A stretch of 64,000 bases of DNA from assembly GCF_002760655.1 (NCBI RefSeq), contig NZ_PDOC01000003.1, positions 124,001 to 188,000 of the forward strand. The letters run 5' to 3'. Positions 2,497 through 63,480 of this stretch are shown piece after piece (the stretch's first letter is position 1; every line of letters starts with the position of its first letter). The stretch is from Massilia eurypsychrophila. GTDB lineage: Bacteria > Pseudomonadota > Gammaproteobacteria > Burkholderiales > Burkholderiaceae_D. The translations under genes and the position numbers were made by a program. The notes under the pieces are model-generated. The model had not been told where the DNA came from and ran no database searches. It saw only the letters and a list, made by a program, of their open reading frames with translations.

Positions 2497-5022
2497 ATGG
2501 CGCATTCGCTTACCTGGTCGGCGCTCAGCAAGTTCGAAATGGCTGAGATGTTCCGGTTGATGGCCGACGAAATCCGGGAAACCGCAATTTTCCTGATGGA
2601 TACGAACGGGATCATCACGGCGTGGAACGACGGCGCCGCCGAAATGAAGGGCTATACCGCCGAGGAAGCGGTCGGGCAGTTCTTCGGCATCCTCTACACG
2701 CAAGAGGACCGGGACGCCGAAGCGCCGCAGCACAACCTGGCTATGGCGGCCCAGCAGGGCTACTTCCGCGAAGAAAGTTGGAGGGAACGAAAGGATGGCA
2801 CGCTGTTCTGGGCGCGCATCGCCCTGACCGCCTTGCGTGACGAGGACGGCACGATGATCGGCTTTTCCAAGGTCACGCTCGACCTGACGCACCACAAGCG
2901 GCTGGAAGAATGCGTCAAGGAAAAGGAGGAAACCCAGCGCATCATGGAAGCGGCCAGCGCCGGCACCTGGTCGTGGACGCCGGCCACGGCGCGCCTCAAA
3001 GTGTCCGAGCACCTGGCCGCACTGCTCGGCTACCCCAGCGAAACGTACACGCTGAGCCGCTCGCAGTCGCTGTCGCTGATCCATCCGGACGACGAAGACA
3101 AGGTCGCCGCCCAGCTGCGCTACGACGTCGGCGCGGTGCGCCCGGCGCCGGTGATGGCCGAGTTGCGTGTGCGCGGCGTCGACGGCGACTATCAGTGGGT
3201 CTACATGCGCGCGCAGTGGCGGCGCGACGAGGCGGACGAATCGCTGGTGCTGCACGGCGTCTGCGTGGCGATCCAGGAACTGAAGAACGCCCAGCGCGAG
3301 CGCGAAAACCTGTTTGCGCGGCTGCAGGAAGAGGAGCAGCGCGCCCAGATCACGCTGCGTTCGATCGCCGATGGCGTCATCACCGTCGATGCGGCCGGCG
3401 CCGTGGCCCAGCTCAATCCGGCCGCCGAGCGCCTGACCGGCTGGAGCGCCGAGCAGGCGCGCGGCAGGCAGGCCAGCGAGGTGTTCCACGTGAGGGCGCA
3501 CGAAAAGGGCGATGCCGAACCGCAGGAGGCCGTGCTCAATCCGATCGAACTGGCGCTGCGCGAGAACCGGGTCGTCTCGGCGCCGCGCAACGCCACGCTG
3601 ATCAGCCGGCACGGCCACCGCCATTCGGTCGCCTACGCCTGCGCGCCGCTGCGCATCATGGACGAGCAGCGTCCGGAAGGCGCGGTGTTGACCATCCACG
3701 ACGTGACGGAGTCGAAGGGCCTGCTCGACGACCTGACCTACCAGGCCAGCCACGACGCGCTCACTGGCCTGCTCAACCGGCGCGAATTTGCCATCAAGCT
3801 GCAGCGCACCCTCGACCGCGTCAAGGCCGAGCACTCGCACGGCGCCGCGCTGCTGTACATGGACCTGGACCAGTTCAAGATCGTCAACGACACCTGCGGC
3901 CATTCGGCCGGCGACGACCTGTTGCAGCAGCTTGCCACCGAATACCGCACGCACGTGCGCGAGCGCGACACGCTGGCGCGCCTTGGTGGCGACGAGTTCG
4001 CGCTCATCGTCGAGCATTGCTCGATCGAGGAAGCGCTGGTGGTGGCCAACAAGGTGCTGGCGACGACGCACCGCTTCCGCTACACCTGCGCCGGCCAGTC
4101 GTTCCAGATCGGCGTCAGCATCGGCCTCATTCCCATCCATCACGGCACCACCAATGTGGAAGAAGCGCTGCGCCTGGCCGACCACGCCTGCTACATCGCC
4201 AAGGAGGCGGGGCGCAACCGCGTGTTCGTGCAGCGCTCCGGCGACGTCGACGTGCAGCGCCGGCGCAATGACATGCACTGGGCCGCCAAGCTGGGCGACG
4301 CCTTCAGCAACGGCCAGCTGCAGTTGTTCGTCCAGCCGATCCGCGCGGTCGGTAAGGCCCAGCGCGGGCTGCACTACGAAGTGCTGCTGCGCATCCAGGA
4401 GGACGACAGTGCGCCGATCGAGCCGGCCATGTTCCTGCCGGCGGCCAACCGCTACGACCTGATGCCCAGCGTCGACCGCTGGGTGCTGAGCCAGACGGTC
4501 GCCTGGCTCGAAGGGCACGCCGAGCACGTCGAGGCGCTGGAAATGTGCTCGATGAACGTGTCGCAACGCGCGCTGGCCGACGATGCGTTCCGCGATTTCG
4601 CCGTCGAGCTGCTGGGGTCCATGTCGGTGCCGGCGCACAAGCTGTGCTTCGAGATCGCCGAAACGGGCGCCTGCGCCAACTTGCACAAGACGCTCGAGTT
4701 CATCGACCGGCTCAAGCAGCTGGGCTGCCGCTTCGCGCTCGACGATTTTGGCACCGGCATGGCGTCGTTTTCGTACCTGAAGCAGATTCCGGTCGACTTC
4801 GTCAAGATCGACGGCTCGTTCATCTCCATGATGACGAGCAGCAGGATCGACTATGAAATGGTGCGCTTTACCAATGAAATCAGCCACGTGATGGGACGCC
4901 AGACCATCGCCGAGTACGTCGCCGACAGCGCCACCTTGGAGGCGCTGGAGAACATCGGCGTCGACTTCGCCCAGGGCTTCTTGCTGGGCGAACCGCGCCC
5001 GATGGCGTTGTCGTTTGCGTGA
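2497..5022 (+). CDS. PAS-PAS-PAS-GGDEF-EAL protein (cyclic di-GMP synthesis/degradation)
   Basis: A cytoplasmic sensor of ~841 residues without membrane segments. It has three PAS-type modules (about 15-135, 145-270 and 280-405), then GGDEF (about 410-570) and EAL (about 590-835). The GGDEF active site is intact (LGGDEF, near residue 497), with an RxxD inhibitory site (RERD) five residues before it. The EAL domain has EVL in place of EAL (EVLLR) but keeps the DDFGTG metal-binding motif and downstream KIDG, so phosphodiesterase activity is plausible. Which activity dominates cannot be told. ATG 2410 is also in frame; 2497 is chosen because the PAS homology starts soon after it. Confidence 0.88.
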   Translation: MAHSLTWSALSKFEMAEMFRLMADEIRETAIFLMDTNGIITAWNDGAAEMKGYTAEEAVGQFFGILYTQEDRDAEAPQHNLAMAAQQGYFREESWRERKDGTLFWARIALTALRDEDGTMIGFSKVTLDLTHHKRLEECVKEKEETQRIMEAASAGTWSWTPATARLKVSEHLAALLGYPSETYTLSRSQSLSLIHPDDEDKVAAQLRYDVGAVRPAPVMAELRVRGVDGDYQWVYMRAQWRRDEADESLVLHGVCVAIQELKNAQRERENLFARLQEEEQRAQITLRSIADGVITVDAAGAVAQLNPAAERLTGWSAEQARGRQASEVFHVRAHEKGDAEPQEAVLNPIELALRENRVVSAPRNATLISRHGHRHSVAYACAPLRIMDEQRPEGAVLTIHDVTESKGLLDDLTYQASHDALTGLLNRREFAIKLQRTLDRVKAEHSHGAALLYMDLDQFKIVNDTCGHSAGDDLLQQLATEYRTHVRERDTLARLGGDEFALIVEHCSIEEALVVANKVLATTHRFRYTCAGQSFQIGVSIGLIPIHHGTTNVEEALRLADHACYIAKEAGRNRVFVQRSGDVDVQRRRNDMHWAAKLGDAFSNGQLQLFVQPIRAVGKAQRGLHYEVLLRIQEDDSAPIEPAMFLPAANRYDLMPSVDRWVLSQTVAWLEGHAEHVEALEMCSMNVSQRALADDAFRDFAVELLGSMSVPAHKLCFEIAETGACANLHKTLEFIDRLKQLGCRFALDDFGTGMASFSYLKQIPVDFVKIDGSFISMMTSSRIDYEMVRFTNEISHVMGRQTIAEYVADSATLEALENIGVDFAQGFLLGEPRPMALSFA

Positions 5023-59506: not shown

Positions 59507-59734
59507 ATGACTCAAGTCCCCAATCCGATGGCAGGCAATCTTGCCTTGGATGAAACAACTTATGAGCGGCGCGACGTACGTAGTCGCGATATCGTTGACC
59601 ATGCCATTTCCGTGCAGGAAACGCACAACACCATGTCAGCGCTGGAATACATGAAGTCCCATGATGTTGCCGCAGAGGTCATCGAGCGCGTGCTGCTCGG
59701 TCCGGACCGCCGCCGCGCCATCGAAGCGTATTAA
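59507..59734 (+). CDS. Small hypothetical protein
   Basis: 75 residues with a good ribosome site (AAGGAA) before ATG 59507. Soluble and helical; central TYERRDVRSRDIVDHAISVQE and a C-terminal helix VAAEVIERVLLGPDRRRAIE. No family recognised. Stand-alone. Confidence 0.6.
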   Translation: MTQVPNPMAGNLALDETTYERRDVRSRDIVDHAISVQETHNTMSALEYMKSHDVAAEVIERVLLGPDRRRAIEAY

Positions 59735-59887
59735 GCGCGTTTTTTACGGCGCCGCGCGCGCCCGGCATCATGTGAAAATGATATCGAATTCGGTCCTGTT
59801 CAGAACGTCAGGCAGGCGCGGTTATACACAAAAAAGTCCCGCAAGAATTGTCGAGATATTTTTTCGCGTTTTCTCCATTGACTTTGT

Positions 59888-60030
59888 AAGTCATTGATTT
59901 TAATCAGACTATTAAGTGCCTTCCGAACGGGCATTTTGTTGAAACCCGCATCGTTACAGGCTTGCGCGATGTCAAGGGCGGCTTATCCACAAAGTTATGC
60001 ACAACTGCTGTGGATATCTGAAAAAGTGCT
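59888..60030. repeat. DnaA-box-bearing element, copy 1
   Basis: About 140 bases that recur, with changes, at 63338-63480. Shared parts include TTGATTTT, GAACGGGCATTTTGTTGAAA, and a block with three DnaA-box-like 9-mers: TTATCCACA (59983-59991), TTATGCACA (59995-60003) and TGTGGATAT (60009-60017, opposite strand, one mismatch). Box starts are spaced 12 and 14 bases, as in copy 2. The stretch 59735-60193 holds no gene. Confidence 0.72.
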
Positions 60031-60193
60031 TTAGAAACGGCCACTTACGTGAATCGGCATGGATTGACGGGCGATTGCGGCGGGAACCGGCTGGCGTTTG
60101 TGGCGGCGATTTTCTAAAAATACCCGGAATATGCTTGCGCCAGACAACTGGACGGATGTACAGTGGTATTCCTTTCCAGTTTGAATGCTTGCC

Positions 60194-62284
60194 ATGTCCG
60201 TCGTCGCTGTGCCTGTCGCTCCCGATGACCCGTACGCCAGCCTGAACCGCGAGCAGCGGGCGGCCGTCGAGCACGATATCGGCGCCCAGGAAGGCGTGTC
60301 GCGGCCGTTGCTGGTCATCGCCGGCGCCGGTTCCGGCAAGACCAGCACGCTGGCGCACCGGGTTGCCCGGCTGATCCAGAGCGGCGCCGATCCGCAGCGC
60401 ATCTTGCTGCTGACGTTTTCCCGGCGCGCCGCCAGCGAAATGACGCATCGCGCCGGCAGCGTGCTGCACCGCGTGCTCGGTTTGCGCGGCAGCCAGGCGC
60501 CGACCAGCCTGCCGTGGGCCGGCACCTTCCACAGCATCGGCGCGCGCCTGCTGCGCCAGTATGCCGGCCGCATCGGGCTGGAAGAATCGTTCACCATCCA
60601 TGACCGCGGCGATTCGGAAGACCTGATGGGAATGGTGCGCCATGACATCGGCCTGACGCAGACGCAGAAACGTTTCCCGCTGAAGGGCACTTGCCTGTCG
60701 ATCTATTCGCGCGTGGTCAACAGCCGCGACCCGCTGCCGCTGGTGTTGCAGAGCACTTTCCCTTGGTGTAACGAATGGGAAGAGGAATTGAAGACGCTGT
60801 TCGGCGCCTACGTCGACGCCAAGCAGGAACAGAACGTGCTCGACTACGACGACCTGCTGCTGTTCTGGTCGGAGATGGCGGCCGATCCGGAGCTTGGCGT
60901 CGAACTGGGTGAGCTGTTCGACCACGTGCTGGTCGACGAGTACCAGGATACCAACCGGCTGCAGGCGGCGATCATCACCGGCATGAAGCCCGACGGGCGC
61001 GGCGTGATGGTGGTCGGCGACGATGCCCAGTCGATCTATTCGTTTCGCGGCGCCACCGTGCGCAACATCCTCGACTTTCCGAAACAGTTTTCGCAGCCGG
61101 CGCAGATGATCACGCTGGACCGCAACTACCGGTCGACGCAGCCTATCCTGGATGCATCGAACGCCGTCATCGATGCGGCGCTGGAGCGGCACGCCAAGAA
61201 CCTGTGGACCGACAAGGTGTCGACCGCGCTGCCGCAACTGGTGCTGATTCCCGATGAGGCCGAGCAGGCGCGCTGGGTGTGCAACCGTATCCTCGAGCAT
61301 CGCGAGGCCGGTATCGCGCTGACGGCGCAGGCGGTGTTGTTTCGGGCCGCCAGCCACAGTGCCGCGCTCGAGCTCGAACTCATCCGACGCAATATTCCAT
61401 TCGTTAAATTTGGCGGCCTGAAGTTTCTGGAGGCGTCGCACATCAAGGACGTGCTGGCGGTGCTGCGCTTTGCGCAAAATCCGAGCGGGCGCCTGGCCGG
61501 CTTCCGCGTGGCGCAACTGATTCCCGGCATCGGCCCGGCGAACGCCGCCAAGTTGCTCGACGCGGTCGGCGAAGCGGCCGAGCCGGTGCTGGCGGTGGAG
61601 CAGTTTGTCGCGCCGACCAAAAGCAGCGGCGACTGGCAGGAATTTGTCGACCTGTTCCGCGCGCTGCGCACGCCAGGGCTGCGCTGGCCGGCCGACATCG
61701 AGCTGGTCAAGAACTGGTACATGCCGCATCTTGAGCGCATGCACGACGACGCGCAGGTGCGTGCGGCCGATGTCGAGCAACTCGCCGCACTTGCCGGCGG
61801 CTACGGCACGCGCGAAAACTTCCTCGCCGAAATCACGCTCGATCCGCCGGAAGCGACCAGCGACCGCGCCGGACCGCCGTTGCTCGACGAGGATTACGTG
61901 ATCCTGTCGACCATTCATTCGTCGAAGGGGCAGGAGTGGAAATCGGTGCACGTACTCAACGTGGTCGATGGTTGCATCCCGTCCGACATGAGCACTGGCA
62001 ACGCCGATGACATCGAGGAGGAACGACGCCTGTTGTATGTGGCTATGACGCGTGCCAAGGAGCATTTGCACCTGGTGGTGCCGAACCGCTTCTTCATCAA
62101 GCAGCAGGCGCAGATGGGCGATCGTCATGTGTACGCCGCGCGCAGCCGCTTCATCAGTCCAGCGATGCTGAAGCATTTCGAGGAGTGCGTGTGGATCACC
62201 GCGGATACGCAAAAAAGCCGCAAGCCGATGCCCGACAGCGTGCGCATGCTGGTGCGCGATCGCGCCCGCAAGGCGTGGAAGTAG
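60194..62284 (+). CDS. UvrD/Rep-family superfamily 1 DNA helicase
   Basis: 696 residues from ATG 60194. SF1 motifs in order: Q motif (LNREQRAAV), Walker A (IAGAGSGKTSTLAHRVARL), Ia (LTFSRRAASEM), II (VDEYQDTN), III (GDDAQSIYSFRGA), IV (LDRNYRST), V (LSTIHSSKGQEW) and VI (EEERRLLYVAMTRAKEHLHL). A 3'-5' helicase for repair or replication restart. It is not a close UvrD or Rep orthologue by length or C-terminus. It lies immediately right of the DnaA-box element. Confidence 0.92.
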   Translation: MSVVAVPVAPDDPYASLNREQRAAVEHDIGAQEGVSRPLLVIAGAGSGKTSTLAHRVARLIQSGADPQRILLLTFSRRAASEMTHRAGSVLHRVLGLRGSQAPTSLPWAGTFHSIGARLLRQYAGRIGLEESFTIHDRGDSEDLMGMVRHDIGLTQTQKRFPLKGTCLSIYSRVVNSRDPLPLVLQSTFPWCNEWEEELKTLFGAYVDAKQEQNVLDYDDLLLFWSEMAADPELGVELGELFDHVLVDEYQDTNRLQAAIITGMKPDGRGVMVVGDDAQSIYSFRGATVRNILDFPKQFSQPAQMITLDRNYRSTQPILDASNAVIDAALERHAKNLWTDKVSTALPQLVLIPDEAEQARWVCNRILEHREAGIALTAQAVLFRAASHSAALELELIRRNIPFVKFGGLKFLEASHIKDVLAVLRFAQNPSGRLAGFRVAQLIPGIGPANAAKLLDAVGEAAEPVLAVEQFVAPTKSSGDWQEFVDLFRALRTPGLRWPADIELVKNWYMPHLERMHDDAQVRAADVEQLAALAGGYGTRENFLAEITLDPPEATSDRAGPPLLDEDYVILSTIHSSKGQEWKSVHVLNVVDGCIPSDMSTGNADDIEEERRLLYVAMTRAKEHLHLVVPNRFFIKQQAQMGDRHVYAARSRFISPAMLKHFEECVWITADTQKSRKPMPDSVRMLVRDRARKAWK

Positions 62285-62290
62285 GGCGGA

Positions 62291-63181
62291 TCAGGCTGGC
62301 GGCAGGGGAGTGGCGACGGCAATGTAGTGCTGCGGGGCGCCTTGCGAATTGTTGATGGCCAGCACCGAGCAGTGCAGGCGGCTGGGGCCGGCGGGCAGCG
62401 TGGTATCGACGCCGCCGGTCCAGGAACCGTCGCGCGCCAGGGTTTCGCGGATATCGTTGACGATCGTTTCCGGAAATGGCTGGCGATGGACCGCATGCAA
62501 GTCGCGGCCGCGCAGTTGCTCAGGGGCGAGGCCGGTGAGCTGGCAGAACAGCGGGTTAGCGTCGAGTATGCGGCCGCTGAGATCGAGCGTGAGCACCATC
62601 GCGTGGTGGTCGACCGCGGCCTGGACTTGGCGGGCCCGGTCGAGTTCGGCCAGCGCGTCATCGCGGGCCTGAGCGGCCGCCGCAAGGGTTGCGTAGGCGC
62701 GCAGCGAAGCGATAACGGTGGTGAACAATTTGCGCGTCGTGAGATCGGTTTTGCTCCAGAAATCGCTGACGTCGTAATCGACGATGATGCTGTGCTCGAG
62801 TGCCTGGCCAGGCTGGCCGGTGCGCAAGACGATACGGACGAGGTCGTTGTGCAAGGTTTCGCGTACCTGGCGCGCGAAGCGCAGGCCAGCGTCGGGCGTT
62901 TCCATCATGACGTCGAGCAGGATCAGGGCGACGTCGGGGGTATCACGAAGCTTGGCCAGCGCTTCCTTTGCCGAGTAGGCGTGGAAAAAGCTGAGGCGGC
63001 GACCAAGAAAGTTGGTGGTGCTGAGTGCGAATTTGGTGACGACGTGCACATCGACATCATCGTCGACGATCAGGATGCGCCAAGGCGCCGGCTCTGCCGC
63101 GTTGACGCCGGCCGACGACGCTTCCTCATCATTGAGGAACATGTCCGGCTCATCTTCATCGACATGATCGGTTGCTCGCAT
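62291..63181 (-). CDS. Receiver-PAS protein (response regulator without an output domain)
   Basis: 296 residues. The receiver domain (about 35-160) has an acidic pocket (VDDDVDVH), phospho-Asp in LILLDVMMETPDAGL, a switch Thr (RIVLRTGQPG) and the conserved Lys in DFWSKTDLT. This pattern is usually followed by DUF3369. Here a coiled coil (about 175-200) and a PAS domain (about 195-290, ANPLFCQLTGLAPEQLRG) follow, and the protein ends without kinase, GGDEF or DNA-binding output. It converges on the helicase gene, six bases apart. Confidence 0.82.
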   Translation of the reverse strand: MRATDHVDEDEPDMFLNDEEASSAGVNAAEPAPWRILIVDDDVDVHVVTKFALSTTNFLGRRLSFFHAYSAKEALAKLRDTPDVALILLDVMMETPDAGLRFARQVRETLHNDLVRIVLRTGQPGQALEHSIIVDYDVSDFWSKTDLTTRKLFTTVIASLRAYATLAAAAQARDDALAELDRARQVQAAVDHHAMVLTLDLSGRILDANPLFCQLTGLAPEQLRGRDLHAVHRQPFPETIVNDIRETLARDGSWTGGVDTTLPAGPSRLHCSVLAINNSQGAPQHYIAVATPLPPA

Positions 63182-63337
63182 CTGCCAACACTAAGTCAGT
63201 GCGGGCGCTTTGTCAAAGCAATTCCCGGTGCATGAAACAGGCTGCTGAGCTGCAATTTTCGGCGACTTATCCCCTGTTGTAGGAATTTGTAGGAATATGC
63301 CGCATAAGATGTGGATTGGGAAAACGTTGACGAACGC

Positions 63338-63480
63338 AAGTCGTTGATTTTGTTGGTTATTAATTTTGCCTTCAGAACGGGCATTTTGTTGAAAACCATG
63401 TGAATACGGGGCTTCCGGGACGTCGGAAGTGCCTTATCCACAACGTTATCCACAGTTCGTGTGGATATCCAGAAAAGCTG
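63338..63480. repeat. DnaA-box-bearing element, copy 2
   Basis: Related to 59888-60030. Boxes: TTATCCACA (63434-63442), TTATCCACA (63446-63454) and TGTGGATAT (63460-63468). The same 12- and 14-base spacing and the same GAACGGGCATTTTGTTGAAA lead. The gene-free stretch 63182-63670 is AT-richer than the rest of the window and contains no other recognisable element. Confidence 0.72.

Follow-up and report, generated by a model that had tools for sequence, protein, structure and literature searches.

A pair of probable DARS-type DnaA-control elements around a UvrD-like helicase gene in Massilia eurypsychrophila

The window analysed here, a stretch of 64,000 nucleotides from contig NZ_PDOC01000003.1 of Massilia eurypsychrophila (positions 124,001 to 188,000), carries two copies, U and D, of an element on either side of a UvrD/PcrA/Rep-type helicase gene and a receiver-PAS gene. 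By analogy with Escherichia coli, each copy is probably a DnaA-control element of the DARS (DnaA-reactivating sequence) type. In both copies a trio of DnaA boxes, here called the core, has the orientation ++- and start spacings of 12 and then 14 bp, and is preceded by a central block with a common 20-mer and by a consensus site for IHF. The core geometry, its conservation and the retention of the pair where the helicase is missing argue together for a DARS-type pair and against a replication origin or the scar of a mobile unit. DARS-type elements are known in kind; the pairing, the overlay of a spacing like that of the E. coli site datA, the probable relocation of the pair and the arrays of trios described below were not found in print. 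Loci, genomes and contigs are referred to by the handles L, G and C, the genome of the window being G000.

Architecture of the two copies and comparison with Escherichia coli

A preliminary description of the window had reported two copies with three DnaA-box-like sites each, spaced by 12 and 14 with the third site on the opposite strand, and had placed them around a UvrD-like helicase gene and a receiver-PAS gene. The first statement is borne out by the coordinates (Table 1) and by a search with the trio pattern, the second by a domain search, in which the receiver domain reached 27 bits, below its cut-off of 30.2. A search for the trio at up to three mismatches gives two hits in the window and no hit in any of 100 shuffles, and TTATNCACA is found five times in the window versus 0.35 times expected. 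The whole genome holds eight trios at this threshold, spread over three loci, and not the hundreds of copies that had been envisaged as a sign against a regulatory role. The sequence GAACGGGCATTTTGTTGAAA is the same in U and D, with no third occurrence in the genome at up to three mismatches. A high-copy repeat was ruled out, as the genome has two copies of the 20-mer. In each copy the IHF consensus (TAAnnnnTTGATW, from a figure legend in PMC8682772) lies 96-97 bp 5' of the first box, box III. Likeness of the central block is also seen in the D copies of relatives and in elements between hemE and priA in other genera.

In E. coli K-12 the boxes of DARS1, in the bioD-uvrB gap, start at 2108 (+), 2122 (-) and 2134 (-) of stretch L148, and those of DARS2, between rppH and mutH, at 3136 (+), 3150 (-) and 3162 (-) of stretch L149. 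In both the start spacing is 14 and 12 with box I opposite, and the other strand reads 12, 14 and ++-, as in the window copies. Passages of PMC5742627 likewise describe box I as opposite to boxes II and III and the spacing of DARS1 and DARS2 as equal. The trio pattern recovered DARS1 at two mismatches and DARS2 at three; at up to four mismatches it was found neither in the datA stretch (7 kb) nor in the oriC stretch (3 kb) of E. coli. The preliminary description had suggested a DnaA-regulating locus, and this suggestion gains support in so far as the core geometry is that of DARS; the core is not that of datA or oriC, although copy U has the box-IHF-box spacing of datA.

The window copies also resemble DARS2 in having an IHF consensus on the far side of box III, and both E. 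coli elements in their intergenic place close to DNA-repair genes. Differences concern the nearest same-strand IHF site, at -87 in DARS2 versus -97 here (10 bp, about one helical turn), and the number of IHF sites on that side, two in DARS2 versus one in window-type copies. The window-type locus has two copies, other neighbours and no clear fixed Fis site, and copy U adds a strong upstream box. An orthologue of E. coli DARS1 or DARS2 was ruled out, since the place beside uvrB or mutH is taken by the helicase and the receiver-PAS gene; because the neighbours differ, the element is regarded as DARS-type and as orthologous to neither.

If the copies act as their counterparts do in E. coli, ADP-DnaA would assemble on the three boxes, and the molecules on boxes I and II would meet head to head, a contact that promotes ADP release according to passages of PMC8682772. 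IHF would bend the flank and activate the complex, as it does in E. coli DARS2 according to parts of PMC4245941. ADP would then leave and the freed DnaA would rebind ATP, providing more ATP-DnaA for the next initiation. The genome of the window encodes IhfA, IhfB, DnaA and Hda above the NCBIfam cut-offs, and a Fis of 77 aa with 117.5 bits, slightly below the cut-off of 122.

Conservation of the pair and spread of the trio

The helicase locus was scanned in the best 80 of 85 relatives, with U and D cores counted on the + strand at up to two mismatches. The helicase has a core on either side in 54 of these loci and no core in 23, some of the latter having short flanks (e.g. L113, L144, L147). 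A single core was found upstream in two loci (L072, L119) and downstream in one (L114); the helicase matches of L119 and L114 are incomplete, whereas L072 has a full flank and yet no D core. According to the record titles all 57 core-bearing loci belong to Massilia, Telluria or Oxalobacteraceae, and none of the 23 core-less loci is titled Massilia. Between -95 and -98, 51 of 56 U copies and 46 of 55 D copies carry the IHF consensus with at most one mismatch (background 1.8e-4 per position). A second IHF-like site occurs on the other side of the core, at +52 from the start of box III, in 40/55 D copies and 4/56 U copies; the D copy of the window itself has two mismatches there.

Copy D lies 187-267 bp 3' of the helicase in 41 of 55 relatives and at 1094-1198 bp in the other 14, in which, judged by distance, the receiver-PAS gene would fit. 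Within the genus, G001 and G004 have the pair, and G002 has both cores on two contigs split inside the helicase. Mean identity between U and D is 0.578 within genomes and 0.578 between genomes, versus 0.620 among U copies and 0.750 among D copies. As the value within genomes is no higher than that between genomes, the duplication is read as old, with the two types kept apart.

Genome G279 keeps both elements at locus L176, with the two cores 346 bp apart and without any helicase match between or beside them in the 3-kb locus, to which the search was confined. This pair adjoins a small open reading frame (ORF) which by eye resembles the left-hand neighbour of copy U (59507-59734). The two copies form a stable unit of the chromosome; the enclosed helicase is their neighbour and may be missing. 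The link to the helicase stressed in the preliminary description is not required, since G279 keeps both elements without it and 23 helicase loci have no core.

A survey of the order, covering 300 genomes, found the trio at up to two mismatches in 214, including 11 of 11 genomes of the family. The control, a single alternative spacing with each gap one base longer, gave no match in any of the 300 genomes, and the reversed-pattern control columns were also zero. Context was analysed for 30 order-level loci handed out from the 214 matching genomes without a random draw; they hold 33 cores, five of them Massilia-type, one being the window itself. An IHF consensus facing the same way precedes box III at -96 to -99 in 22 of the 33 cores, and in 17 of 28 when the five Massilia-type cores are set aside; every other IHF offset within 160 bp has at most two matches. 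By tblastn, 12 of the 30 loci adjoin xseA (with exbB, exbD or lpxK), five hemE and priA, and three the helicase; one is the helicase-less pair and nine were left without assignment. One of these nine, L158, is possibly an origin, with a gyrB-type gene beside it. DARS-type loci often adjoin genes of DNA metabolism: uvrB and mutH in E. coli, and xseA, priA and the present helicase elsewhere.

The trios of the 12 xseA loci have the same 12/14 core, with an IHF site at -97 to -99 in 8/12, but a different place. The hemE-priA elements of other Oxalobacteraceae also differ in place and agree with the window in trio, IHF site and central block; six from other genera (in L169, L173, L177, L178 and L179) have identities of 0.57-0.70 to the window copies. 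Identity to the window copies is lower, 0.35-0.50, for the hemE-priA copies of the window genome itself and of G004; by eye, one of the two in G004 is without box I and the other has an IHF site with two mismatches. On a simple reading of these sequences, a working pair probably reached the helicase site by transfer or copying, and the earlier hemE-priA pair would have decayed. Arrays of 4-7 trios with DARS geometry within 0.6-1.4 kb were found in several genomes (Table 1), including those of the window's genus, between xseA and exbB where the context was read. Most of their trios read TTGCGCACA-N3-TTATCCACA-N5-TGTGCAGA, and an IHF-like site at -29/-30 accompanies 10 of 26 array trios. Such arrays may act as a sink for DnaA or as an array for its reactivation.

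Several observations weigh against the DARS-type assignment. No trio was found at up to two mismatches in 86 of the 300 order genomes, 11 of the 33 order-level cores have no IHF site at the usual distance, and one of the five genus genomes, G003 at 82% completeness, lacks both the pair and a close helicase. The IHF site lies 10 bp farther out than in E. coli DARS2, so that the present group would have to differ in detail. According to parts of PMC4245941, a 10-bp shift of the IHF site away from the core left DARS2 moderately effective, and 5-bp shifts were effective only partly. No fixed offset has a perfect Fis consensus in more than 3 of 111 copies; with one mismatch allowed, the consensus is found at -66 in 50 of 111 copies, and in 11 of 33 order-level cores. 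Finally, as copy U also fits the datA spacing, its net effect could be the opposite.

Sequences like DARS1 and DARS2 are described as conserved in many proteobacterial species in a part of PMC10380432 that cites Fujimitsu 2009, the DARS2 core is tied to gamma-proteobacteria related to E. coli in passages of PMC4245941, and an excerpt of PMC5742627 gives beta or gamma for the spread of DARS. Clusters of DnaA boxes in Burkholderia cenocepacia are plotted in PMC4948915, in the text of which the word DARS is absent. The literature search yielded nothing on DARS2 in Betaproteobacteria, DARS in Ralstonia or DnaA boxes in Massilia, and the DARS papers found concern E. coli. With its base-pair-exact core in 214 of 300 genomes of another order and its fixed IHF distance, the element would open the DARS system to tests in a further large group, whose natural variants differ in the number of copies (pairs, arrays of 4-7), in chromosomal location and, by about one helical turn, in IHF spacing.

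datA-like spacing of copy U and alternative readings

For comparison with E. coli datA, box 2, box 3 and the IHF-binding site were assigned from the order given in passages of PMC5742627; the two boxes lie at -162 and 0 and the IHF site at -97, all in one direction. In copy U the upstream box (59822) lies at -161 and the IHF site at -96, i.e. at distances of 65 and 96 bp. A perfect same-strand upstream box together with the IHF consensus is present in 45 of 56 U copies versus 0.27 boxes expected, and the box lies at -161 to -163 on the + strand in 43 of 56. At the corresponding distance the upstream box of the D copies has two mismatches in 52/55 and one mismatch in 3/55; the two-box and IHF spacing of datA is found in copy U and, owing to this weak box, not in copy D. 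E. coli datA differs in that its box 3 is accompanied by an inverted box at +12, where copy U has the DARS trio, and in its box 7. This low-affinity box is required by datA according to PMC5742627; from the order given there, a box 12 bp before box 2 of E. coli datA was assigned to it here. None of 46 U copies has a box at up to two mismatches 12 bp 5' of the upstream box, while one U copy has a one-mismatch box at 13 bp. Strict identity of copy U with datA is ruled out by the missing box 7. Outside Massilia the distance from upstream box to IHF site is 67-68 bp in L177-L179, 76-78 bp in L169 and L173, and 89-90 bp in L167 and L168. A perfect upstream box is missing from the IHF-bearing xseA-side or other loci L151, L153, L156, L157, L162, L164 and L166.

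Since its box-IHF-box spacing is that of datA, copy U overlays a datA-like triad on a DARS core; at the level of sequence it satisfies one part of the datA description and fails another. A tentative and rather improbable extension would make copy U a composite switch, with box III and a single IHF site common to the datA triad and the DARS core. Such a switch could hydrolyse ATP-DnaA or reactivate ADP-DnaA, depending on the loaded form of DnaA and on the partner proteins, and may resemble the ancestor of the separate enterobacterial datA and DARS2; in Massilia the working pair would have been moved or copied from hemE-priA to the SOS-helicase site, with the old copies decaying. If true, the composite layout would speak directly to the question of how two sites with opposing effects came about.

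A purely datA-like role of copy U is unlikely. IHF bending would here join the ATP-DnaA bound to the upstream box with that bound to box III, ATP would be hydrolysed and DnaA activity lowered. The one-directional box-65-IHF-97-box arrangement shared with E. coli and its frequency among the U copies speak for such a role, but the box 7 equivalent is missing, the E. coli datA stretch has no trio at up to four mismatches, and the upstream box of the D copies is weak. Moreover, the seven IHF-bearing loci just listed lack a perfect upstream box, and in L167, L168, L169 and L173 it stands 76-90 bp from the IHF site.

Control of the neighbouring repair genes by DnaA bound to the boxes, as in a DnaA-regulated promoter region, is decidedly unlikely, although the setting invites it: copy U lies 168-202 bp 5' of the helicase start, near an SOS-type box that all 54 relatives with both cores have, copy D stands 5' of the receiver-PAS gene, xseA and priA are the neighbours in 12 and five of the 30 order-level loci, and in E. 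coli DARS1 precedes uvrB and DARS2 stands between rppH and mutH. Simple repression, however, needs no fixed IHF distance, copy D stays in the 41 of 55 relatives that have no room for the receiver-PAS gene, and G279 keeps both copies without the helicase.

The preliminary description had also considered the scar of a mobile unit and a secondary or integrated replication origin; both are unsupported. The first, highly improbable also when widened to terminal repeats of a unit that would carry the helicase, would account for two direct copies that bracket a gene and for the copies without that gene in L176. It would not account for the place of the pair relative to the helicase, which is the same in 54 of 57 core-bearing loci, or for a U-D identity that is the same within and between genomes and below that of U with U and D with D, and the 20-mer occurs only twice in the genome.

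The complete relative G004 has the pair at 2362-2366 kb and dnaA at 4153 kb. A dif-like site, found with what we take to be the dif pattern, lies at 1976.5 kb, 0.39 Mb from the pair. The candidate oriC at 4445-4446 kb is the densest DnaA-box cluster of the stretches read; it (L066 17058-18260) has ten DnaA boxes in 1.2 kb and three CTACTACTA repeats, which are presumably DnaA-trio-like, and lies about 290 kb from dnaA. The GC skew of G004, from 20 sampled 20-kb stretches and one further locus, was too noisy to place origin or terminus. That the window pair is an origin, as an AT-rich stretch with DnaA boxes adjoining a helicase might suggest, is very improbable, because neither the E. coli oriC stretch nor the G004 candidate oriC holds the trio at up to four mismatches, the pair lies about 2.08 Mb from the latter, and the helicase matches repair-type families and no initiator.

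Neighbouring genes and feature coordinates

The features of the two copies, their neighbours and the trio arrays of other loci are summarized in Table 1.

Table 1. Features of the window around element copies U and D, and arrays of DARS-geometry trios
Feature	Position	Strand	Remarks
Element copy U	59822-60017		IHF consensus, central block with 20-mer, DnaA box trio
Upstream DnaA box TTATACACA, perfect	59822..59830	+	copy U; 65 bp 5' of IHF site, place of datA box 2
IHF consensus TAAGTCATTGATT, perfect	59887..59899	+	copy U
Common 20-mer, central block	59925..59944	+	copy U
DnaA box III	59983..59991	+	copy U
DnaA box II	59995..60003	+	copy U
DnaA box I ATATCCACA, one mismatch, inverted	60009..60017	-	copy U
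Element copy D	63267-63468		IHF consensus, central block with 20-mer, DnaA box trio
Weak upstream box TTATCCCCT, 2 mismatches	63267..63275	+	copy D
IHF consensus CAAGTCGTTGATT, 1 mismatch	63337..63349	+	copy D
Common 20-mer, central block	63375..63394	+	copy D
DnaA box III	63434..63442	+	copy D
DnaA box II	63446..63454	+	copy D
DnaA box I ATATCCACA, one mismatch, inverted	63460..63468	-	copy D
Small ORF, 75 aa	59507..59734	+	left-hand neighbour, syntenic marker; no Pfam or NCBIfam family
LexA/SOS-type box CTGGACGGATGTACAG	60148..60163	+	5' of helicase, outside element; by eye in window
UvrD/PcrA/Rep-type SF1 helicase	60185..62284	+	PF00580, PF13361
Receiver-PAS protein	62291..63181	-	domain search; copy D sits 5' of gene
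Trio array, G000	C6:270243-270942		L194
Trio array, G001	C3:113759-114384		L197
Trio array, G002	C498:3643-4374
Trio array, G003	C346:3370-4094
Trio array, G004	C1:773816-775220		L193
Trio array, G279	C1:1623426-1624076		L196
Trio array, G198	C12		L195

The helicase matches the UvrD, PcrA and Rep models and stays below the cut-off of every NCBIfam equivalog matched. The SOS-type box follows what we take to be the LexA pattern; in the 54 relatives having both cores it was located 5' of the helicase by a rule-based search. Beyond the window end, 3' of copy D (L009 11470-17037), large ORFs by eye resemble a VgrG-type secretion region.

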